A stretch of DNA of 64,000 nt from Zoogloeaceae bacterium G21618-S1 (GTDB lineage: Bacteria; Pseudomonadota; Gammaproteobacteria; Burkholderiales; Rhodocyclaceae): assembly GCA_027214125.1 (NCBI GenBank), contig JAPWHF010000003.1, positions 1 to 64,000 of the forward strand. Reading direction: 5' to 3'. The notes under the pieces are model-generated. The model saw only the letters and a list, made by a program, of their open reading frames with translations. It did no database searches and was not told the DNA's origin. Made by a program: the position numbers and the translations under genes. Positions 39,990 through 49,017 of the stretch are shown here, piece after piece. How positions within the stretch are numbered: the stretch's first letter is position 1; the number at the start of each line of letters is the position of its first letter.

Positions 39990-40700
39990 TCAGGGGATCT
40001 TCACAACACGCATCGAGCGCACCTTGTTGCGGATCTCTTTGGGCAGACGACCGCTCTTCGTCTGGTAGAACAGGCCACCTTTCCAGTTCGGCTCGGGGTA
40101 GAGCTCCAGGCGATAGCCCTCACGCAATTTCACGAAGTCCACCTTTTTGCCAGCGCGGCCCCAGCCAGTGTGGCGGATGTCGCTGTACTCGCCGTAACGC
40201 AGGCACAGATCGTCCTTCTTGGCCCGCATGTCATGCCGGCTGGTGTAGATACACACCGGATAGCCCTTTACCTTGTCATTGAGTTCGTATGCCCACACGC
40301 CGCGCAGCTTGCCGCGACGGATATCGACGGGGCCGTCCTGGGTGAGTCGGGTCTTGGTCAACTTGCCGCTGGCGTTCTCGTACCATACGGTCGCCCCCCA
40401 GCCCGAGCTCAGCCCGATGTACTGCACCGGCAGGTCAAAGTGCGGAACATCTTTCTTCAGATCCTTGTCACGAAACTTCTTCTCATCGCCGCCCACGCCG
40501 TTGATGCCGTGGCCACCCCAACGGACGCAGGAGCGCTCGCTTTCGAGCTTCTGCTCGCCAGCTTTTTCGTACAGATAGAGACACACCGGATAGCCCTTGG
40601 CAGCATGCGCAGCACTGGCGCCAAGCAGGCTGCCGGCCGCGATCACTGCGAGTGCGGCCGAATGGATCTGTCGAGCAAGAGGTGTCGATTGCTTTGGCAT
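39990..40700 (-). CDS. Exported beta/gamma-crystallin-like protein with internal repeat
   Basis: Exported 236-residue protein; signal peptide at about 1-33 (ending AAHA). Two copies of a motif are visible: KGYPVCLYLYEKAG...CVRWG (about 34-61) and KGYPVCIYTSRHD...CLRYGEY (about 144-171), each with two cysteines. The C-terminal stretch YRLELYPEPNWKGGLFYQTKSG...VRSMRVVKIP follows the beta/gamma-crystallin Greek-key pattern (aromatic-x-E-x-x-N-x-x-G ... S-x-R-V). The promoter has an 18-bp palindrome shared with three others in this cluster, 109 bp before the start, placing it under the same regulator. Function unknown; crystallin-like domains often bind calcium in secreted bacterial proteins, inferred only. 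Confidence 0.75.
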   Translation of the reverse strand: MPKQSTPLARQIHSAALAVIAAGSLLGASAAHAAKGYPVCLYLYEKAGEQKLESERSCVRWGGHGINGVGGDEKKFRDKDLKKDVPHFDLPVQYIGLSSGWGATVWYENASGKLTKTRLTQDGPVDIRRGKLRGVWAYELNDKVKGYPVCIYTSRHDMRAKKDDLCLRYGEYSDIRHTGWGRAGKKVDFVKLREGYRLELYPEPNWKGGLFYQTKSGRLPKEIRNKVRSMRVVKIP

Positions 40701-40780: not shown

Positions 40781-40826
40781 ATTCTCGAGCGCGACGGGTG
40801 CAGCGTTAATGGGGTCGACACCCCAT
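40781..40826 (-). promoter_or_regulatory. Cluster promoter 1: palindromic operator plus -10, for the crystallin-like gene
   Basis: On the leftward strand the palindrome ATGGGGTGTCGACCCCAT (40826-40809) has perfect 7-base arms. Twenty-two bases later comes GAGAAT (40786-40781), a 4/6 match to the -10 consensus. There is no -35 hexamer; the palindrome occupies that place, with its centre near -43, the normal site for a LuxR-type activator. The start codon is at 40700. Confidence 0.75.
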
Positions 40827-40847
40827 ATTGGCGGGCGCCCCCAATAG

Positions 40848-40874
40848 AAAACGGCCGGACTACCCGCCCGGCCG
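40848..40874 (-). terminator. Rho-independent terminator of the 43132-40899 operon
   Basis: On the leftward strand CGGCCGG (40874-40868) pairs with CCGGCCG (40858-40852) around nine bases and is followed by TTTTCTATT. It lies 25 bp after the stop at 40899 and separates that operon from cluster promoter 1. Confidence 0.8.
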
Positions 40875-40898
40875 CAGTGTGATGACACCAGAGCGAGC

Positions 40899-42545
40899 CT
40901 ACAGCACCGGTACCGTCACGCCGACCTGGTCCCACACCTTGGTGCCCACTTCGTTGTACTCGCCGTACTCCGCCCCCAGCCCGACGCCGGCGCTGAAAGT
41001 GAAGCCGGCCAAGCGCTCCTGGGCACGGGTGCCGGGGTCGAAGTAGGTGTACCAGGCCCCGCCCCCGACACTGACCACGCCGCTGATCGAACCAACCACG
41101 CCTTGCGTATGGCCGGTTTCATAGGGCAGCTTCCAGAAACCGATGACCACACTGCCATCGACACCCACCGCGGCGCCCTTGCTCAGCCCTCCCGAGGCAT
41201 AAGGCCGCAGGCGACCGGTACCGGTATTGACCACCAGCCCCAGCTCGCCATTGATGCCGCCGAGCACGGCCACATCGCCCCCGGCGCCGACCGTGACCTC
41301 GCGATATCCAAGGCTGCGAGCGAGTTTGACGACGCGGATGAAGTTTTGCTGACCGATCAGTATCTCGGTTGCCGCCTTCCAGTCACGCCGGATCAGCGCG
41401 TTTCGATACGCCTTGCGCGTTTGTTTGCTCGAGAACATGCCGTCAAGAAACTCCTTGGCAGCGTTTTTGAGCTGGTTTGAGCGCGGCAGGTTCTGACGCG
41501 CCGCGGCCCTGATATCGAAGGCCGGCGCGCACGCTTTGCCGCTCTTCGTGCCGAACAGGCTGCTGAGCATGGTCTTGAGCTTGGGCGGCTGTTTGGCCGG
41601 GCGCAGGTTACCGTCGCAGCCAAAGTTGCCTCGGACCGGCTTGCAGCGGTTGGACGACACCGCGCCGACGCCGTCACGCTCATAGCCGGCGGGGCAGGAC
41701 ATGCAGGTGCCTAAGACATTGAACTGGCCACTTGCACAACCCGAGGCCTGCTTCTGATAGACCGCGCGCTTGTACGGGCCACCAATGAGCTTGCCACGCT
41801 GACGGCAAGCCTTGGGATGGTCGAGCTTGTGCGCGGTGCGCTTGTAGCCATCGGGGCACACCCAGCAGCTACCGCCGCGCACGGACGAGAAATACGACTG
41901 CCTCCCCGGGCAGCCCAGCTTCTTGGCCTTGCCCTTGGCGACCGGCTGAATCTTGCTGCAAGGCGTCTCGCCAAAACCACCGCAACCCGGCGTGACGTCA
42001 TTGCGCACCGGCGGGGGCGGCGCGGGGGTCGGGTCGGGCATCGGAATCGGCGGCACAATACCGATCGGCGGCACCGGCGGCCCGGGCAGGCGCATCTCGG
42101 CCTCATAGGCCGTGCGGTTGTCGATATCGACCGGGATGAGCTGATAGCGGACCGGACCGAGGGCCCCCTGAACCGCCACGTCCATCTGCCCGGAGGTATT
42201 CAGGCTGGCGCTAAAGGCGCCCTGCAGCGGCAGATCGTCACCGGCGAACTGCGCCGGCGCGGTGCGACGCACGTTCTGCCACACCACCATGCCGGGCTGG
42301 ATCTGCATCACCCCCAGGTGCAGCCAGGGGTCGACTGCGTAAGCGCGCCCGGCCTCGATGCGAATGCGTTTGCCGAGGGTGCTGATCCGCCATTCACCAT
42401 CGACCGAGGTAACCGTGTTGCGTTCAACGGCCTCCTTCATTGGCAGCGCGGCCGGCATCTGCGCACAGGCACCGAGCAAGCCCAACAGGGGCAACAGCAG
42501 CAGAAGGCGGATCTTGAGGTAGCTTGAGGCGGCGAGTTGGCGCAT
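40899..42545 (-). CDS. Large cysteine-rich lipoprotein with DGEW/PWLH domain, function unknown
   Basis: A 548-residue exported protein of a type I do not know. Lipobox LLGAC (lipidation Cys about residue 27). Residues 48-145 are a domain shared with the next gene upstream (DGEW, GKRIRIE, GRAYAVDPWLH, QPGMVV, GDDLPL, VRYQL). A proline-rich linker with PPIPMPDPTPAPPPP (about 155-180) comes next, then a cysteine-rich region (about 185-300). That region has two CPxGY units (CPDGYKRT, CPAGYERDG), like growth-factor-receptor or TNFR-type repeats. A glycine-rich beta region ends the protein (about 415-548). It is second in a two-gene operon (14-bp gap) under cluster promoter 2. Confidence 0.8.
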   Translation of the reverse strand: MRQLAASSYLKIRLLLLLPLLGLLGACAQMPAALPMKEAVERNTVTSVDGEWRISTLGKRIRIEAGRAYAVDPWLHLGVMQIQPGMVVWQNVRRTAPAQFAGDDLPLQGAFSASLNTSGQMDVAVQGALGPVRYQLIPVDIDNRTAYEAEMRLPGPPVPPIGIVPPIPMPDPTPAPPPPVRNDVTPGCGGFGETPCSKIQPVAKGKAKKLGCPGRQSYFSSVRGGSCWVCPDGYKRTAHKLDHPKACRQRGKLIGGPYKRAVYQKQASGCASGQFNVLGTCMSCPAGYERDGVGAVSSNRCKPVRGNFGCDGNLRPAKQPPKLKTMLSSLFGTKSGKACAPAFDIRAAARQNLPRSNQLKNAAKEFLDGMFSSKQTRKAYRNALIRRDWKAATEILIGQQNFIRVVKLARSLGYREVTVGAGGDVAVLGGINGELGLVVNTGTGRLRPYASGGLSKGAAVGVDGSVVIGFWKLPYETGHTQGVVGSISGVVSVGGGAWYTYFDPGTRAQERLAGFTFSAGVGLGAEYGEYNEVGTKVWDQVGVTVPVL

Positions 42546-42559
42546 TGTTATTGGCTCCC

Positions 42560-43132
42560 TTAGTCGTCAGCGTCGTCGTCAAAGTCGTTCTCGTCGGTGT
42601 CGACCGGGGCCTCGTCCTCTCCTGGCAGCGGCATTTCGCCACCGCCGAGCCCGCCGGCGTGGTCAAGACTAACAGGCTGAAGCTGGTAGCGGACAGCCCC
42701 GAGCACGCTGGCGACCGTCACATTGAGCGCGCCCGAGGCATCGCGCAGCGCCTCGAATCGGCCTATCAGGGGCAGGTCGTCGCCCACATAGCGACCATCG
42801 CCCACGCGCTGGATGTTCTGGATCACCACCATGCCCGGCTGCACTTGCAGCACAAACATGTGTAGCCACGGATCGACCGCGTAGGCGCGCCCGCCTTCGA
42901 TGCGGATGCGCTTGCCAATGGCGTCGATCATCCATTCGCCATCGATGTCCATCGCCGCCCCGGCCGGCACGCTCGCCGAGGTGGGCAGGAAGGCGGGAAT
43001 CTGGGGCAACTGGGGCGCCTGGGCCTGAACCGCGGTGCTAACTAGGCTGACAGCGATCAGGCCGGTGGCAATCAAGGCGCGCAAGGGGCGGTCAAAGCGG
43101 CGCGGGGTCGGGAGCGTGGTCGTTGTTTTCAT
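42560..43132 (-). CDS. Exported protein with DGEW/PWLH domain, function unknown
   Basis: A 190-residue exported protein: a long basic leader and hydrophobic core (signal peptide ending VQAQA, about residue 38), then one domain (about 61-160) and an acidic tail ending DENDFDDDADD. The domain, DGEWMIDAIGKRIRIE, GRAYAVDPWLHMFVLQVQPGMVV, GDDLPLIGRF and AVRYQLQPV, closely matches residues 48-145 of the following lipoprotein. They are paralogues, produced together. ATG 43132 gives the signal peptide; the frame is open to 43318, but that region is promoter 2 and its leader. I know no named family for this domain. A periplasmic or surface role is inferred from export. Confidence 0.8.
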   Translation of the reverse strand: MKTTTTLPTPRRFDRPLRALIATGLIAVSLVSTAVQAQAPQLPQIPAFLPTSASVPAGAAMDIDGEWMIDAIGKRIRIEGGRAYAVDPWLHMFVLQVQPGMVVIQNIQRVGDGRYVGDDLPLIGRFEALRDASGALNVTVASVLGAVRYQLQPVSLDHAGGLGGGEMPLPGEDEAPVDTDENDFDDDADD

Positions 43133-43192
43133 GATCGTCTCGCGGTGGTCTATGGAGTGTTGTCGGGCGTCATGTGCCCTGACGACACCGCT

Positions 43193-43238
43193 ATTCTTGG
43201 TCAGCCGCCGAGTCACTTGAATGGGGTCAACACCCCAT
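43193..43238 (-). promoter_or_regulatory. Cluster promoter 2: palindromic operator plus -10, for the 43132-40899 operon
   Basis: The leftward palindrome ATGGGGTGTTGACCCCAT (43238-43221) has perfect 7-base arms. The -10-like AAGAAT (43198-43193) follows after 22 bases, the same spacing as at the other three sites. It starts about 55 bp before the ATG at 43132. It is back to back with promoter 3; 47 bp separate the two palindromes. Confidence 0.75.
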
Positions 43239-43285
43239 CCTGCGCCATCAACGCGCTGCGGCCTTCGGCCCGCGCAGCGCATCAA

Positions 43286-43331
43286 ATGCGGTGAACACCC
43301 CATGCGCCGCAGACGCACGGCTTGCTATGGT
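43286..43331 (+). promoter_or_regulatory. Cluster promoter 3: palindromic operator plus -10, for the 43360 gene
   Basis: The rightward site ATGCGGTGAACACCCCAT (43286-43303) has one arm mismatch. TATGGT (43326-43331), the -10 candidate, follows after 22 bases. The start codon is at 43360, leaving a leader of about 22 bases. Confidence 0.65.
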
Positions 43332-43359
43332 TGAGCCATCAAACCGTCGGGAGCCCCTC

Positions 43360-44187
43360 ATGAAAACCGCCGCACACATCACCCGCCAACTCACGCTGTC
43401 CCTTTGCCTGTGCGGCTCGGCGGCGATGACGCTCGCCGCGCCACCCGCCACGACGACCGTTGAGCATCCGTGTGCGGCGACGCTCGATTACGCACAGATA
43501 CTGCGCAGCGCCGATGGCGAATCGCTGTCTTTCCGCAGCACCTCGCGCTGCGCTGGCGGGCTGTACGTGCAGGATCTGCGGCGCCACGCCCCCGCCTCGG
43601 CACCGCTGATACCACTCGTCAAAGGCTGGTGGCTGACCGACTTCGTGGCGGCCCGCTGGGTAGACAAAGCGGCCAGGGTAGCGCAGGTACGGGCACGCTA
43701 TATCACCGGCGCCGGGCCAAACGGCGCACGGCCCTTCAATGTGGAAGTGACGCTGCGCTGGCGCGACGGCGCATGGCAGGCCGATGAAGCACAGATCCGC
43801 GAGGCCGACTTCGATCTGCCAACACATCTGGGCGACACGCTGATTCAAGCCGCCACGGCCGAACAGTTCGAGAACCTGGCGCTCGCCACTCCCGATCGGC
43901 CCTCGGCATCCTCGGTCGACTTCAGTCGCCAGCGGGTGATTGCGATGGAGGTCGCGCGAACCCATGGCGCGATGCGCATCACGGCGCCGCGCGCGGTGCT
44001 CAAGGACGGCGCGTATCACCTGGGCTACGACATCGGAGACAACGGCTTTCACATCGGCACGACCAATGTCAGCATTGGCTGGCTGTGGTACACCCTGCCG
44101 CGCGACGGCCGCCCGGTGCAACGCATGGCGCGATGCGCGCCTGGCCGTCAGGACAACGCCGAAAACGCCCCGAAAGACTGCATATAG
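43360..44187 (+). CDS. Exported protein of unknown function
   Basis: A 275-residue exported protein. The signal peptide (about 1-26) ends MTLAA. A cysteine pair is visible early in the mature part (EHPCAATL, TSRCAGG), and a later cysteine pair is near the C-terminus (ARCAPG, KDCI). Strand-rich segments include VEVTLRWRDGAWQADEAQIREADFDLP, suggesting a beta-sandwich, but I can name no family. ATG 43360 has GGGAG upstream. It is divergent from the DGEW-domain operon and shares its type of palindromic promoter. It ends 74 bp before the convergent kinase gene stop at 44262. Confidence 0.78.
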   Translation: MKTAAHITRQLTLSLCLCGSAAMTLAAPPATTTVEHPCAATLDYAQILRSADGESLSFRSTSRCAGGLYVQDLRRHAPASAPLIPLVKGWWLTDFVAARWVDKAARVAQVRARYITGAGPNGARPFNVEVTLRWRDGAWQADEAQIREADFDLPTHLGDTLIQAATAEQFENLALATPDRPSASSVDFSRQRVIAMEVARTHGAMRITAPRAVLKDGAYHLGYDIGDNGFHIGTTNVSIGWLWYTLPRDGRPVQRMARCAPGRQDNAENAPKDCI

Positions 44188-44261
44188 ATGGCCGACCGCA
44201 CCGATAGCAAAGCGGCCGATCTCCGGCCGTTCTTTTTGCCCCGGATCGCGCCAGCGGCTCG

Positions 44262-45800
44262 CTAGGCGGGCGGCGCGACACGGGTGATGATGATCGTCGC
44301 GCAGGTGCCACACCCGGCCGCCGATGCCAGCGTGAAGCGCATGTCGCCGGCATCGCACAGTGCCTGCACGATGCCCAGCCCCAGCCCATGGCCGTCGCTG
44401 TCGGTGTCGCCGCGCACGCCGGGCTCGCCCACTCGTGCCAGCATGTCGGCGTCCATCCCGCGACCGTTGTCCCGCACTTGAAAGCACACCTGCCCGGTCC
44501 GTTGCCGGAAGGTGACCAGAATGCGCGTGGGCGCGGCATGGGCCAGCGCGTTGCCAATCAGGTTGGTCATGACGCGCATGGTCGGCAAGGGGTCGACACA
44601 CACCCACGCCTCGGTCGCGCGCACCCGCAGGTCAACACCGCGCCGTGCCGCATCATCGGCAAACATCTGGCGCAGCATGGCGGCAAAAATGAGGGTCGAC
44701 ACCGTCTCCCGCGCTGGCGCCGGGCTGTCATCCACAGCGCCACCGCGTGGGCCGGCGGCCAGCTCCTCGTCCAGATAGGCGCGGGCCAGGCTGTCGATGT
44801 AATCGACTGCGCGATCGAGCTTGTCGGCCTCCGTCCCCTGCGCCTCTCGCTGGAGGTCGTCGATGGCGATGCGCAGTGCGGTGATCGGCTGCTTGAGGTC
44901 GTGCGACACCGACGCCAGCTGCGTGCGGTGCCGTTCGGCCAATGCGCGCGCCCGCTCGTAGTCCCGCTCGGCGCGCACCAGGGCAAGCTGCAGATCGGCC
45001 TCGGCCTTGGCCGCCTCCAGCACCCGACGTTCGGCATCCACCTTTTCGCGCGCGGCGGCAAAGGCCTGCCAGATGACGATGGTCAGCGCGAACACCGCCA
45101 CCAGCACCATCAACCCTCGGTTGATCTGATTCAGCGTCGCCCGATCGAAGTCGAACGCCAGCCAGTGACCAAGATAAACAGCGACGGCAACACCGCCGAG
45201 CACCACCGGAAAGGCGCGGATGATGCGGCGCAGCCCCGGGTCGGGCGTTTGCCAGGTCAGTGGCGGCAATGTTTGCGCCAGCAGCATGCCAAAGAACAAG
45301 GCATTGGCCGGCACCCACATGGCGGTCAGCGGAATCCGCTTCAACCACAGCGCGCTGCTCACGCACAACAGGCCAGAGACCACCGCCAATATCAGGCTGG
45401 GCCGGCGAAAACGCACCAACGCGTGCGGTATTTCGAGCCGCGCGGCCACCAGCCAGTAGCCGTAGGTCGTCACTGCGGTGGTGATGATGAAGGGCAGCGC
45501 CCAAAGCACGAAATCGGTCTCGCCCAGCGCTTGCGCCAACATGCCGTCCTGCGCGGCGGCATTGAGCGCGAGCAGCACCGTTAACAACACATAAGCCAGC
45601 CACTTCGGCTGCCGATACGCTGCGATGATCGCCGCCGAAAAGGCCGCCGCGCTCAGCGTAAAAGTGTAGAAGGCGATGTCGCCAGCGCCCGCCGTGGCAC
45701 CGGGCGTCAACGCCAGTGCTGGCTGCGGCAGCAGCCCCGCCAGGGGCAGCAAGCAGCGAAGCGCCGCACCGAGGCGGCACAACAGGGAAAGAGTCATCAT
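44262..45800 (-). CDS. Membrane sensor histidine kinase of the local two-component system
   Basis: A 512-residue kinase. After a signal-like first segment there are six or seven further hydrophobic helices (to about 235), then a coiled coil (EKVDAERRVLEAAKAEADLQ). The H box SVSHDLKQPITALRIAIDDL follows (phospho-His near 300). The HATPase has NLIGNALAHAAP (N box), DNGRGMD (G1) and GHGLGLGIV (G2). Two starts compete: ATG 45920 overlaps the regulator stop as ATGA. ATG 45800 gives the signal segment at the N-terminus and lies 36-43 bp after cluster promoter 4. I favour 45800; the longer form would translate through the operator. It should phosphorylate the LuxR-type regulator encoded upstream. 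Confidence 0.88.
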   Translation of the reverse strand: MMTLSLLCRLGAALRCLLPLAGLLPQPALALTPGATAGAGDIAFYTFTLSAAAFSAAIIAAYRQPKWLAYVLLTVLLALNAAAQDGMLAQALGETDFVLWALPFIITTAVTTYGYWLVAARLEIPHALVRFRRPSLILAVVSGLLCVSSALWLKRIPLTAMWVPANALFFGMLLAQTLPPLTWQTPDPGLRRIIRAFPVVLGGVAVAVYLGHWLAFDFDRATLNQINRGLMVLVAVFALTIVIWQAFAAAREKVDAERRVLEAAKAEADLQLALVRAERDYERARALAERHRTQLASVSHDLKQPITALRIAIDDLQREAQGTEADKLDRAVDYIDSLARAYLDEELAAGPRGGAVDDSPAPARETVSTLIFAAMLRQMFADDAARRGVDLRVRATEAWVCVDPLPTMRVMTNLIGNALAHAAPTRILVTFRQRTGQVCFQVRDNGRGMDADMLARVGEPGVRGDTDSDGHGLGLGIVQALCDAGDMRFTLASAAGCGTCATIIITRVAPPA

Positions 45801-45842
45801 GATCGGACACCCAGGCATCGGCCGCTCAGGCCGGAAGCCCTC

Positions 45843-45888
45843 ATTGTTCGACGCCGCCCGACTCGGCAACATGGGGTCGGCACCCCAT
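45843..45888 (-). promoter_or_regulatory. Cluster promoter 4: palindromic operator plus -10, for the histidine kinase
   Basis: The leftward palindrome ATGGGGTGCCGACCCCAT (45888-45871) has perfect 7-base arms. AACAAT (45848-45843) follows after 22 bases. It sits just after the response-regulator stop (45917) and before the ATG at 45800. The kinase would therefore be boosted by its own system in addition to read-through. Confidence 0.7.
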
Positions 45889-45916: not shown

Positions 45917-46591
45917 TCATGTCGGGTCGATCAATCCGTCCTTGAGCGCGCGCATCATCAACTGCGCGGCGGAATGGACGTCCAGTTTGGTCATCAGGCT
46001 GCTGCGGTGCTTGTCCACCGTCTTGGGGCTGATGTTCAGCATCTGCGCCATCTCCTTGTTGGTCTTGCCCGCCACCACCATGTTGAGAATCTGCCGCTCC
46101 CGATCGGTCAGCGTCGCCGCCTGCCGGCCGGCCGCGATCATGGCCTCGAACTCCGGCGCGATGAATCGCCCGCCCCGCAGGATCAAGGGCAGCTTGTCGA
46201 TCATCGCCGTCGTCGCCCCGCCCTTGCTGAACAAGCCATCGACCCCCGCCTCCACCGTGCTCGCCACCAGGCCCGGCGAGGTAATGCCGGTGAATACCAC
46301 GATGCGCGTGGCCGGACTCCAGCGACGGATGTCATGGATGATCTCCGCCCCACTGGCCAGCGGCATGGAGATATCGAGAAACAGCAGATCGGGCCGGTGC
46401 GTCTTCACCTGCGCAATCGCCGCCAACCCGTCCGGCGCGATCGCGCAAATCTCGAAACGCATCAGCAGCTGCGCCCCGGCCTGCACCAGCAAGCTGCGCA
46501 CGGCGTCCTGAATGATCGCGTGGTCATCGGCCACGACCACACGGACGGCGGAAGAATCGGTGGGTATCTGCACGCGCTTCAAGGCCGGCAC
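45917..46591 (-). CDS. LuxR/NarL-family response regulator
   Basis: A 224-residue regulator. The receiver domain has acidic residues in VVVADDHAIIQDAV, the phosphoacceptor in LLFLDISMPLASG (near residue 73) and the threonine/lysine positions in VVFTGI and LFSKGG. The C-terminal LuxR-type HTH (about 157-220) is LTDRERQILNMVVAGKTNKEMAQMLNISPKTVDKHRSSLMTKLDV, textbook. Start is GTG at 46591 with AGGG upstream; an internal start is possible, since the receiver begins near residue 16. It precedes the kinase gene in the same direction and is the best candidate to bind the four local palindromes. No such palindrome precedes its own gene; only an ACCCCAA half-site near 46654-46660. Confidence 0.93.
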   Translation of the reverse strand: MPALKRVQIPTDSSAVRVVVADDHAIIQDAVRSLLVQAGAQLLMRFEICAIAPDGLAAIAQVKTHRPDLLFLDISMPLASGAEIIHDIRRWSPATRIVVFTGITSPGLVASTVEAGVDGLFSKGGATTAMIDKLPLILRGGRFIAPEFEAMIAAGRQAATLTDRERQILNMVVAGKTNKEMAQMLNISPKTVDKHRSSLMTKLDVHSAAQLMMRALKDGLIDPT

Positions 46592-46876
46592 GAACGCGCG
46601 ACCCTATCGGTTGCCATGCGCCCGAGTATCGCAGGTTTTTGCTGCGGGATTGGGGTTGGCAGCGCGTTAGCGTGCGTACAGTCCATCGACGAGGCGCTGA
46701 TTGACATTGGCGTTCACGGCCGGCACGAAGTCGACGGCAACGCCGTTGATACTTGACGGGATACTGGGCATGACATGGGACGGTTCAGGGCAGGCGAGCG
46801 CCAACGACCACGCCGGAAATGCCTGCGTCATGCATCGAGATTCTGCCCTCACGCTCGACGCCAGGCCACCGCCCAC
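46592..46876. other. Intergenic region upstream of the response regulator
   Basis: It holds the regulator's promoter and the end of the leftward monooxygenase gene. A short leftward frame ending at 46667, with a protein-like tail (NGVAVDFVPAVNANVNQRL), has no ribosome site or recognised family, and could be a gene remnant. Nothing else is supported. Confidence 0.4.
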
Positions 46877-47824: not shown

Positions 47825-48135
47825 GGTGGGGCTCCTTCGGCAGCGAACGGTGACGAGGGGATTGTCGACCGTTTGTGGCGCGTCGCGAACCGGAGGTGTG
47901 CCGAAAATGCGTTGTCCGGATGGTGCAATCAACACGACCGATCTCGCCACGCAGTGTCGAAATCCATTACATACCTTTCGAACGCCAATGTCATCACATT
48001 GATTCTATGAATCTATTTTTCAATGGTACAAATAGTGCTTAGACTAAAGTACTAACCACCTCTGGCCACATGGACTTCCGCCCGGAGACCGCAAAGCGGG
48101 GTGGAGCGCCTGGGACAGGCACGAGGAGACAGATC
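47825..48135. other. Divergent intergenic region between monooxygenase and PEP-CTERM repeat gene
   Basis: It contains no gene. The part at 47950-48055 is notably AT-rich for this genome (for example around TTCTATGAATCTATTTTTC), and likely holds the rightward promoter. I could not find a clear sigma-54 or palindromic element. Confidence 0.5.
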
Positions 48136-49017
48136 ATGCGATACGTTCGAATGCTCTATTTGGTGACGTCGATGGCTGTCGGCCTTGGCTGGTCTGGCAT
48201 TGCTCAGACGGCACCGGTGTACTGGAACCTGTTCAACCTCGAAGGCGAGAGCAGCCTCGACTCGATCTACGTGACTTACGACAGCCAGATCGACATGCTG
48301 ACCGACAGCAACCGGACGGGAACCTTCGTGCCAAACACCACGGGTATCTCCGCACAAAACGTGGTGGGTAGCGGATCGGACGGAGCGACCTACTGGAACC
48401 TGTTCAACCTCGAAGGCGAGAGCGGCTTCGATGCGATCTACGTGACGTACGGCACCCTGATCGACATGCTGACCGACAGCAACCGGACGGGCTCCTTCGT
48501 ACCGAATACCACGGGCGCCTCCGCGGAAAACGTAGTGGGTAGCGGATCGGACGGCGCGACCTACTGGAGCCTGTTCAACCTCGAAGGCGAGAGCAGCTTA
48601 GACGCGATCTACGTAACTTACGGCAGCCTGACCGACATGCTGACCGACAGCAACCGGACGGGCTCCTTCGTGCCGAACACCACGGGCGCCTCCGCGCAAA
48701 ACGTGGTGGGTAGCGGATCGGACGGCGCGACCTACTGGAACCTGTTCAACCTCGAAGGCGAGAGCAGCCTCGATGCGATCTACGTGACATACGGCAGCCT
48801 GGCCGACATGCTGATCGACAGCAACCGGACGGGCTCCTTCGTGCCGAATACCACGGGCGCCTCCGCACGAAACGTGGTGGGCAGCGGGGCATCGATCTTC
48901 GATACGCTACCGCCAGGATCTGTCCCTGAACCGGGGTCTGTCGGACTGGTGCTCTTGGCGCTCATGTGTCTGAGCCTATTCAAAAAGACGCACCGAGCCG
49001 ACGGCGCCAGCGGTTGA
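48136..49017 (+). CDS. PEP-CTERM protein composed of four tandem 57-residue repeats
   Basis: Exported 293-residue protein. The signal peptide is at about 1-27. Four near-identical 57-residue repeats follow, each YWNLFNLEGES...DAIYVTYGS, then DMLTDSNRTGSFVPNTT and NVVGSGSDGAT. The tail VPEPGSVGLVLLALMCLSLF with KKTHR is a complete PEP-CTERM sorting signal. ATG 48136 has GAGGAGAC upstream. DNA identity between units is high (about 90% or more by eye), implying recent duplication and likely copy-number variation. The units are threonine/asparagine/glycine-rich, as expected for an extracellular matrix or adhesin-like protein; function unknown. Confidence 0.9.
   Translation: MRYVRMLYLVTSMAVGLGWSGIAQTAPVYWNLFNLEGESSLDSIYVTYDSQIDMLTDSNRTGTFVPNTTGISAQNVVGSGSDGATYWNLFNLEGESGFDAIYVTYGTLIDMLTDSNRTGSFVPNTTGASAENVVGSGSDGATYWSLFNLEGESSLDAIYVTYGSLTDMLTDSNRTGSFVPNTTGASAQNVVGSGSDGATYWNLFNLEGESSLDAIYVTYGSLADMLIDSNRTGSFVPNTTGASARNVVGSGASIFDTLPPGSVPEPGSVGLVLLALMCLSLFKKTHRADGASG
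48220..48891 (+). repeat. Four tandem 171-bp repeats inside the PEP-CTERM gene
   Basis: Units begin at 48220, 48391, 48562 and 48733, exactly 171 bp apart and in frame. The last lacks the final SDGAT part. Units differ by scattered substitutions (for example GAC/GGC at the DSQ/GSL position, AAC/AGC in WNL/WSL). Confidence 0.95.

Follow-up and report, generated by a model that had tools for sequence, protein, structure and literature searches.

The 64,000-nucleotide stretch analysed here (the window; positions 1 to 64,000 of contig JAPWHF010000003.1, assembly GCA_027214125.1, Zoogloeaceae bacterium G21618-S1) encodes a histidine kinase (44262..45800, minus strand) and a response regulator (45917..46591, minus strand), and four copies of an 18-bp palindrome, ATGGGGT-N4-ACCCCAT, precede genes of the same cluster. 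With a probability of about 90%, judged from comparative sequence analysis, the palindrome is the operator of a self-contained two-component regulon, in which the regulator would bind the operator and activate the promoters of exported proteins and of its own kinase. The operators have a fixed distance to the -10 hexamer, are conserved among relatives and co-occur with the kinase-regulator pair. In the proposed mechanism, the membrane histidine kinase would phosphorylate the NarL/FixJ-type regulator, a dimer of which would bind the palindrome with its 3' end 22 bp before the -10 hexamer and recruit sigma-70 RNA polymerase to promoters that have no conserved -35 element. The predicted targets are an operon for an exported DGEW-domain protein and a lipoprotein, the divergent gene at 43360 and a possibly crystallin-like gene, whose products may have an envelope or surface role, and the kinase gene itself, which would give positive feedback.

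Three of the four window operators have perfect 7-bp arms around a variable N4, namely ATGGGGTGCCGACCCCAT before the kinase gene (45871..45888, minus strand), ATGGGGTGTTGACCCCAT before the DGEW operon (43221..43238, minus strand) and ATGGGGTGTCGACCCCAT before the crystallin-like gene (40809..40826, minus strand), and the fourth, ATGCGGTGAACACCCCAT before the divergent 43360 gene (43286..43303, plus strand), has one mismatch (ATGCGGT). The corresponding -10 hexamers, AACAAT (45843..45848), AAGAAT (43193..43198) and GAGAAT (40781..40786) on the minus strand and TATGGT (43326..43331) on the plus strand, each begin exactly 22 bp 3' of the palindrome and match TATAAT at four of six positions, just as an earlier sequence-only reading of this DNA had described. 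The same reading had judged the shared spacing hard to obtain by chance, which was borne out by single-base shuffling of the four 60-bp flanks (0 of 100,000 shuffles; offsets 8-40, at least 4/6 to TATAAT). It had also proposed a genome-wide scan; in the 4.39-Mb genome (66 contigs), sites with at most one mismatch were confined to the four copies of the window cluster, which rules out a genome-wide repeat, and two more sites appeared at two mismatches.

A search of genome contigs with the regulator returned five loci, in Denitromonas halophila (L044, 99% identical), D. ohlonensis (L045, 93%), a gammaproteobacterial metagenome-assembled genome (MAG; L046, 65%), a 5,905-bp contig (L047, 62%) and L048, which was dropped (30%). 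A further genus member, G175, has a regulator 75% and a kinase 64% identical, and G717, found by searching 184 genomes from the order to which the L046 MAG belongs, has a regulator of 50-52% and a kinase of 26% identity. Six lineages are thereby counted: the window with its near-twin L044, L045, G175, L046, L047 and G717; the regulator homologues of the five further lineages (93-50% identical) each come with the operator. In L045, L050, L046 and L047 the regulator gene is followed by that of the kinase homologue; in G717 the two genes are divergent. The operator before the kinase gene is kept in L045, L050, L046 and L047, the DGEW gene has its operator in these four and in G717, the crystallin-like gene keeps its operator in L045 and the G717 homologue has one as well (L116:12636), and the single mismatch before the 43360 gene is identical in L045. 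The L047 contig, from a record named Synechococcus sp. BSA11S, holds the regulator, the kinase, the DGEW gene and three operators; as to whether it is cyanobacterial or a contaminant, its tetranucleotide correlation is 0.519, versus a range of 0.521-0.799 among 12 chunks taken from four other contigs.

The footprint was analysed in 18 sites from the window, L045, L046, L047 and G175, oriented by the downstream gene. These sites were picked at no more than one mismatch, so that the arms were little free to vary, and neither the centre nor the spacing was a selection criterion; two of the seven G175 sites (1242770 and 4317014), neither with a -10 at 22, are omitted. At offset 22 the hexamer reaches at least 4/6 in 16 sites and at least 3/6 in all 18, and at no other offset between 8 and 40 does more than one site reach 4/6. 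The base at -11 is A in every site and the final hexamer base is T in 17. In the arms, 11 of 14 positions are invariant, positions 1, 4 and 12 of the 18 vary in two sites each, and the central four bases are free. The window, L044 and L045 are close relatives; with L045 removed (L044 was never included), 12 of 14 sites still reach 4/6 and all 14 reach 3/6. Apart from small exceptions, both arms and spacing persist, though regulator identity goes down to 50%.

The full count covers the seven genomes or loci that have the kinase and comprises 27 sites with no more than one mismatch (four each in the window, L044 and L045, seven in G175, two in L046, three in L047 and three in G717). In one orientation, a hexamer at offset 22 reaches at least 4/6 in 21 of these sites and at least 3/6 in 24. 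Perfect dyads can form hairpins, and 29 of 199 family genomes, not counting the three kinase-positive ones of that sample, contain chance-like copies with one mismatch or none, so the palindromes might be thought a dispersed repeat, an RNA hairpin or a chance feature with no link to transcription. These other genomes served as the control: in 27 of their 31 sites (those with the locus returned), 0 of 54 orientations had at least 4/6 at offset 22, versus 21 of 27 sites in the full count, and five had 3/6. None of the 29 genomes is among the four kinase-positive ones, the kinase search naming only some of the genomes that it covered. Moreover, the window's genome has only four copies, all 5' of genes, and the centre drifts while the arms stay. 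A feature of that kind is already contradicted by copy number, footprint and control comparison and can practically be dismissed.

A search for the kinase at E <= 1e-50 gave matches in 4 of 341 family genomes, each a member of this genus (10 members listed), and in no further genome among 339 of the class. The four genus members that have the kinase contain 4, 4, 4 and 7 sites with at most one mismatch, and the four negatives tested of the six listed have none; at two mismatches, chance-like sites turn up in kinase-positive and kinase-negative members alike. In the three distant genomes the sites cluster at the two-component locus (2 of 2 in L046, 3 of 3 in L047 and 2 of 3 in G717, together 7 of 8). 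This co-occurrence and clustering support the earlier proposal of a local regulon under a LuxR/FixJ-type regulator, though the regulon of G175 and of G717 extends to distant loci as well. Operators of global regulators also occur before two-component genes, and some other DNA-binding protein encoded elsewhere could bind the palindrome, with the two-component genes merely among its targets. The occurrence of genus sites in all four kinase-positive genomes and in none of the four negatives tested, and the clustering of sites at the three distant loci, speak against such a protein, as does the absence of a second regulator gene common to the loci; by eye, the regulator is the sole DNA-binding gene shared by their lists of open reading frames. 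Control by a different protein is accordingly considered very unlikely.

The claim that the promoters have no -35 held in that none is conserved, the TTGACA match at 17-bp spacing averaging 2.6/6 over the 18 oriented sites, but some individual sites do reach 4/6: four of the 18 at this spacing, such as TTAACG at the crystallin-like gene, and seven of the 18 at one or another spacing from 15 to 19, including TTGCCG at 15 for the window kinase. With the -10 hexamer placed at -12 to -7, the operator would lie at about -52 to -35, centred near -43.5, and at 17-bp spacing the first T of the -35 position would be the last palindrome base. The fixed operator-to--10 spacing and the poor -35 are those of an activator site abutting the -35 (class II-like). 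A poor -35 fits activator-dependent promoters, and the absence of a conserved one favours activation. The regulator could instead use the same operator to repress, or to repress and activate, by occluding the -35 region, as the overlap of the last operator base with the -35 position and the four sites with a 4/6 match there would allow. Repression nevertheless appears unlikely given the lack of a conserved -35 and the fixed 22-bp spacing, since fixed operator spacing is typical of contact-dependent activation. NarL, of the same family, activates from about that position, according to the part of the study drawn on here (PMC7419079).

The 224-residue regulator, a receiver joined to a GerE (LuxR/NarL-type) domain, falls within the NarL/FixJ (LuxR-type) domain definition, with Pfam matches to Response_reg (2.7e-17) and GerE (1.9e-20) above the cut-offs. 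D22, D23, D73, T101 and K123 are invariant in six aligned regulators and are presumably the phospho-acceptor Asp and the acidic/Lys pocket, and S[PA]KTV[DE]KHRxSxM, kept in all six, is taken to be the recognition-helix segment. Against the named NarL-type equivalogs of NCBIfam (NarL, FixJ, UhpA, GacA, MctR and others), the best 25 of 106 were all below cut-off, the top score being 124.5 bits versus a cut-off of 242. FixJ-type activators have the receiver and GerE architecture and a promoter-proximal site; the NCBIfam FixJ model gave 88 bits versus a cut-off of 255, so the regulator is not FixJ itself. Only VraR (1.5e-26) and DesR (5.7e-26) matched among solved structures at E <= 1e-25, a likeness at family level only.

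In the excerpted account of NarL in E. coli, a single site just upstream of the -35 suffices at yeaR, and two sites are required at ogt, one of them centred at -44.5 (PMC7419079). As far as that excerpt goes, the present system resembles NarL in having a NarL/FixJ-type regulator and an inverted repeat beside the -35 region. It differs in that the NarL site is a 7-2-7 repeat of other sequence serving the nitrate response, whereas a 7-4-7 repeat with ATGGGGT arms stands here before exported-protein genes. ComA of Bacillus subtilis is a GerE-type regulator as well. In the consulted portion of the ComA study, it binds TTGCGG elements arranged as an inverted repeat, preferably with 4 nt between them, the spacer length found here, and it also uses direct repeats, the better arrangement at the promoter-proximal place, an inverted repeat there having given over 10-fold lower output (PMC4797271).

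Several points weigh against the proposed regulon. Sequence alone does not separate activation from repression, and the single inverted repeat of the present promoters occupies the promoter-proximal place where ComA, by that same portion, works poorly. Two of the seven G175 sites are without a -10 at 22, the one at 1242770 lying inside a 1299-residue open frame, and so, on the gene's side, are two of the three G717 sites, both at the two-component locus: the best -10 of the crystallin-like gene there is TAAACT (4/6) at 21, and the DGEW gene has CACACT (3/6) at 21, with TCTCAT (4/6) at offset 10 scoring higher. The distant G717 site has TAGGAT at 22. Two of the three L047 sites have no better than 3/6 at 22. 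The G717 kinase gene is without an operator, and L047 alone has a good operator before the regulator gene, a perfect one. Elsewhere the best site before the regulator gene has four mismatches (window) or five to six (L045, G175 and L046), with none of four or fewer in G717; the window site (46650-46667, minus strand, 58 bp before the gene) is not claimed as an operator.

As regards the targets of the regulon, the DGEW-domain gene stands behind an operator in all six lineages and is the one common to all, and the kinase gene does so in five. The other operator-fronted genes have, by eye, signal-peptide-like or lipobox-like starts: they encode the 43360 protein, the crystallin-like protein and its 38%-identical homologue in G717, a DM9-repeat lipoprotein and two further secreted proteins in G175 (L049, L053), and one lipoprotein in G717. 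These genes agree with the target set put forward earlier, secreted proteins plus the regulator's own kinase, except for the G717 kinase. The gene of the DM9-repeat lipoprotein (L051:6333-6893, plus strand; Pfam 1.9e-27) has TAGACT 22 bp past its operator and lies far from the two-component genes; the DM9 domain is mostly found in animals. In L046, neighbours of the DGEW gene encode a serpin (7.5e-48) and an FG-GAP protein, and in G717 one encodes a TonB-type receptor. None of these three genes has an operator of its own (up to three mismatches in L046, up to four in G717), and they may be co-transcribed with the DGEW gene.

Matches to the DGEW profile were confined to the window's own genome in samples of 369 genomes of the class and 204 of the phylum; within the family, 8 of 345 genomes had a match. 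Four of these eight belong to genus g50 and have a DGEW lipoprotein; in their DGEW loci (12.7-19 kb) tblastn matched neither the kinase nor the regulator, and the operator was absent with up to three mismatches allowed, so the target can exist without the circuit beside it. The g50 loci (L073-L076, from G194, G104, G140 and G170) encode homologues of the 548-residue lipoprotein of the window, and L073 and L074 adjoin, by eye, a DNA-polymerase-I-like gene. A sequence search gave no solved relative of the DGEW domain, and the barrels of retinol/fatty-acid-binding and lipocalin type that a fold search returned had E values of 0.05 or worse, which is not significant.

In the window, the DGEW operon consists of the gene for the 190-residue DGEW-domain protein (42560..43132, minus strand), with a signal-peptide-like start by eye, a beta-rich model and no Pfam or NCBIfam family at E 0.1, and, after a gap of 14 bp, that for a probable lipoprotein of 548 residues (40899..42545, minus strand), with a lipobox-like start by eye, a DGEW domain and a glycine-rich C-terminal part; homologues of the latter occur in G175 and genus g50. 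The product of the divergent gene (43360..44187, plus strand), 275 residues long, likewise begins, by eye, like a signal peptide and matches no Pfam or NCBIfam family at E 0.1. The starts of the two divergent operators are 65 bp apart, equal to the distance in L045 (11247, 11312), and the interval between them (43239-43285) is GC-rich with an inverted repeat visible by eye. The possibly beta/gamma-crystallin-like protein (39990..40700, minus strand; 236 residues, signal-peptide-like start by eye) bears a borderline label: the window protein has no Pfam match, and the G717 homologue matches Crystall_3/Crystall at E 0.06, below the cut-off. The predicted structure of the crystallin-like protein (predicted local distance difference test, 46) is too poor for use.

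The kinase start was taken as the ATG at 45800, 3' of the kinase operator, the longest open frame beginning at 45920. By Pfam, HATPase_c (6.7e-18) is above its cut-off and HisKA (7.7e-6, 26.3 bits) below its cut-off of 26.9; the N-terminus is weakly 7TMR-DISM_7TM-like (22.9 bits, 9e-5), and the G717 kinase scores 26.5 bits, both below the cut-off of 29. Near the regulon lies a gene (48070-49017, plus strand) whose product is PEP-CTERM-like (Pfam PEP-CTERM E 0.011, below cut-off) and contains, by eye, about four nearly identical repeats; no operator with at most one mismatch lies 5' of this gene.

The system is sparse and patchy in the sampled genomes. This distribution, together with an operator little changed despite a regulator at 50% identity, suggests horizontal spread. 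For the DGEW protein, a plasmid collection gave no match, and for the kinase, 18 phage records gave generic kinase-domain matches with identity of at most 30.3%, none with 80% coverage. A known defence family was likewise rejected, PADLOC returning four weak helix-turn-helix matches to the regulator and zero for the other five proteins. A more speculative and rather doubtful extension is that sensor-regulator, operator and core DGEW target travel between distant bacteria as a portable cassette that recruits host-specific exported proteins, such as the crystallin-like protein and the DM9 lipoprotein, with the serpin, FG-GAP protein or TonB-type receptor as neighbours. Such a cassette could control a surface response to other organisms, and its operator and regulator would be an orthogonal pair that stays essentially unchanged while the rest diverges.

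The type of circuit is familiar; no description of the present system was found. The operator in five written forms had no match in the open-licence literature searched, and terms for the arm, regulator and palindrome returned nothing relevant by title and abstract start. Among the matches listed for Denitromonas, none had a two-component regulon in its title or the start of its abstract, and those listed from the wider literature included no account of the system by title. For this uncharacterised two-component system, the analysis yields a regulon prediction that specifies the exact operator, the spacing and the targets, in a genus that, by the excerpt cited, has cultured type strains (PMC10581121). 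It also places several exported proteins that have no known family, most notably the DGEW-domain ones, in a shared regulatory context, and the near-invariant operator with its short fixed promoter geometry is a candidate orthogonal switch.

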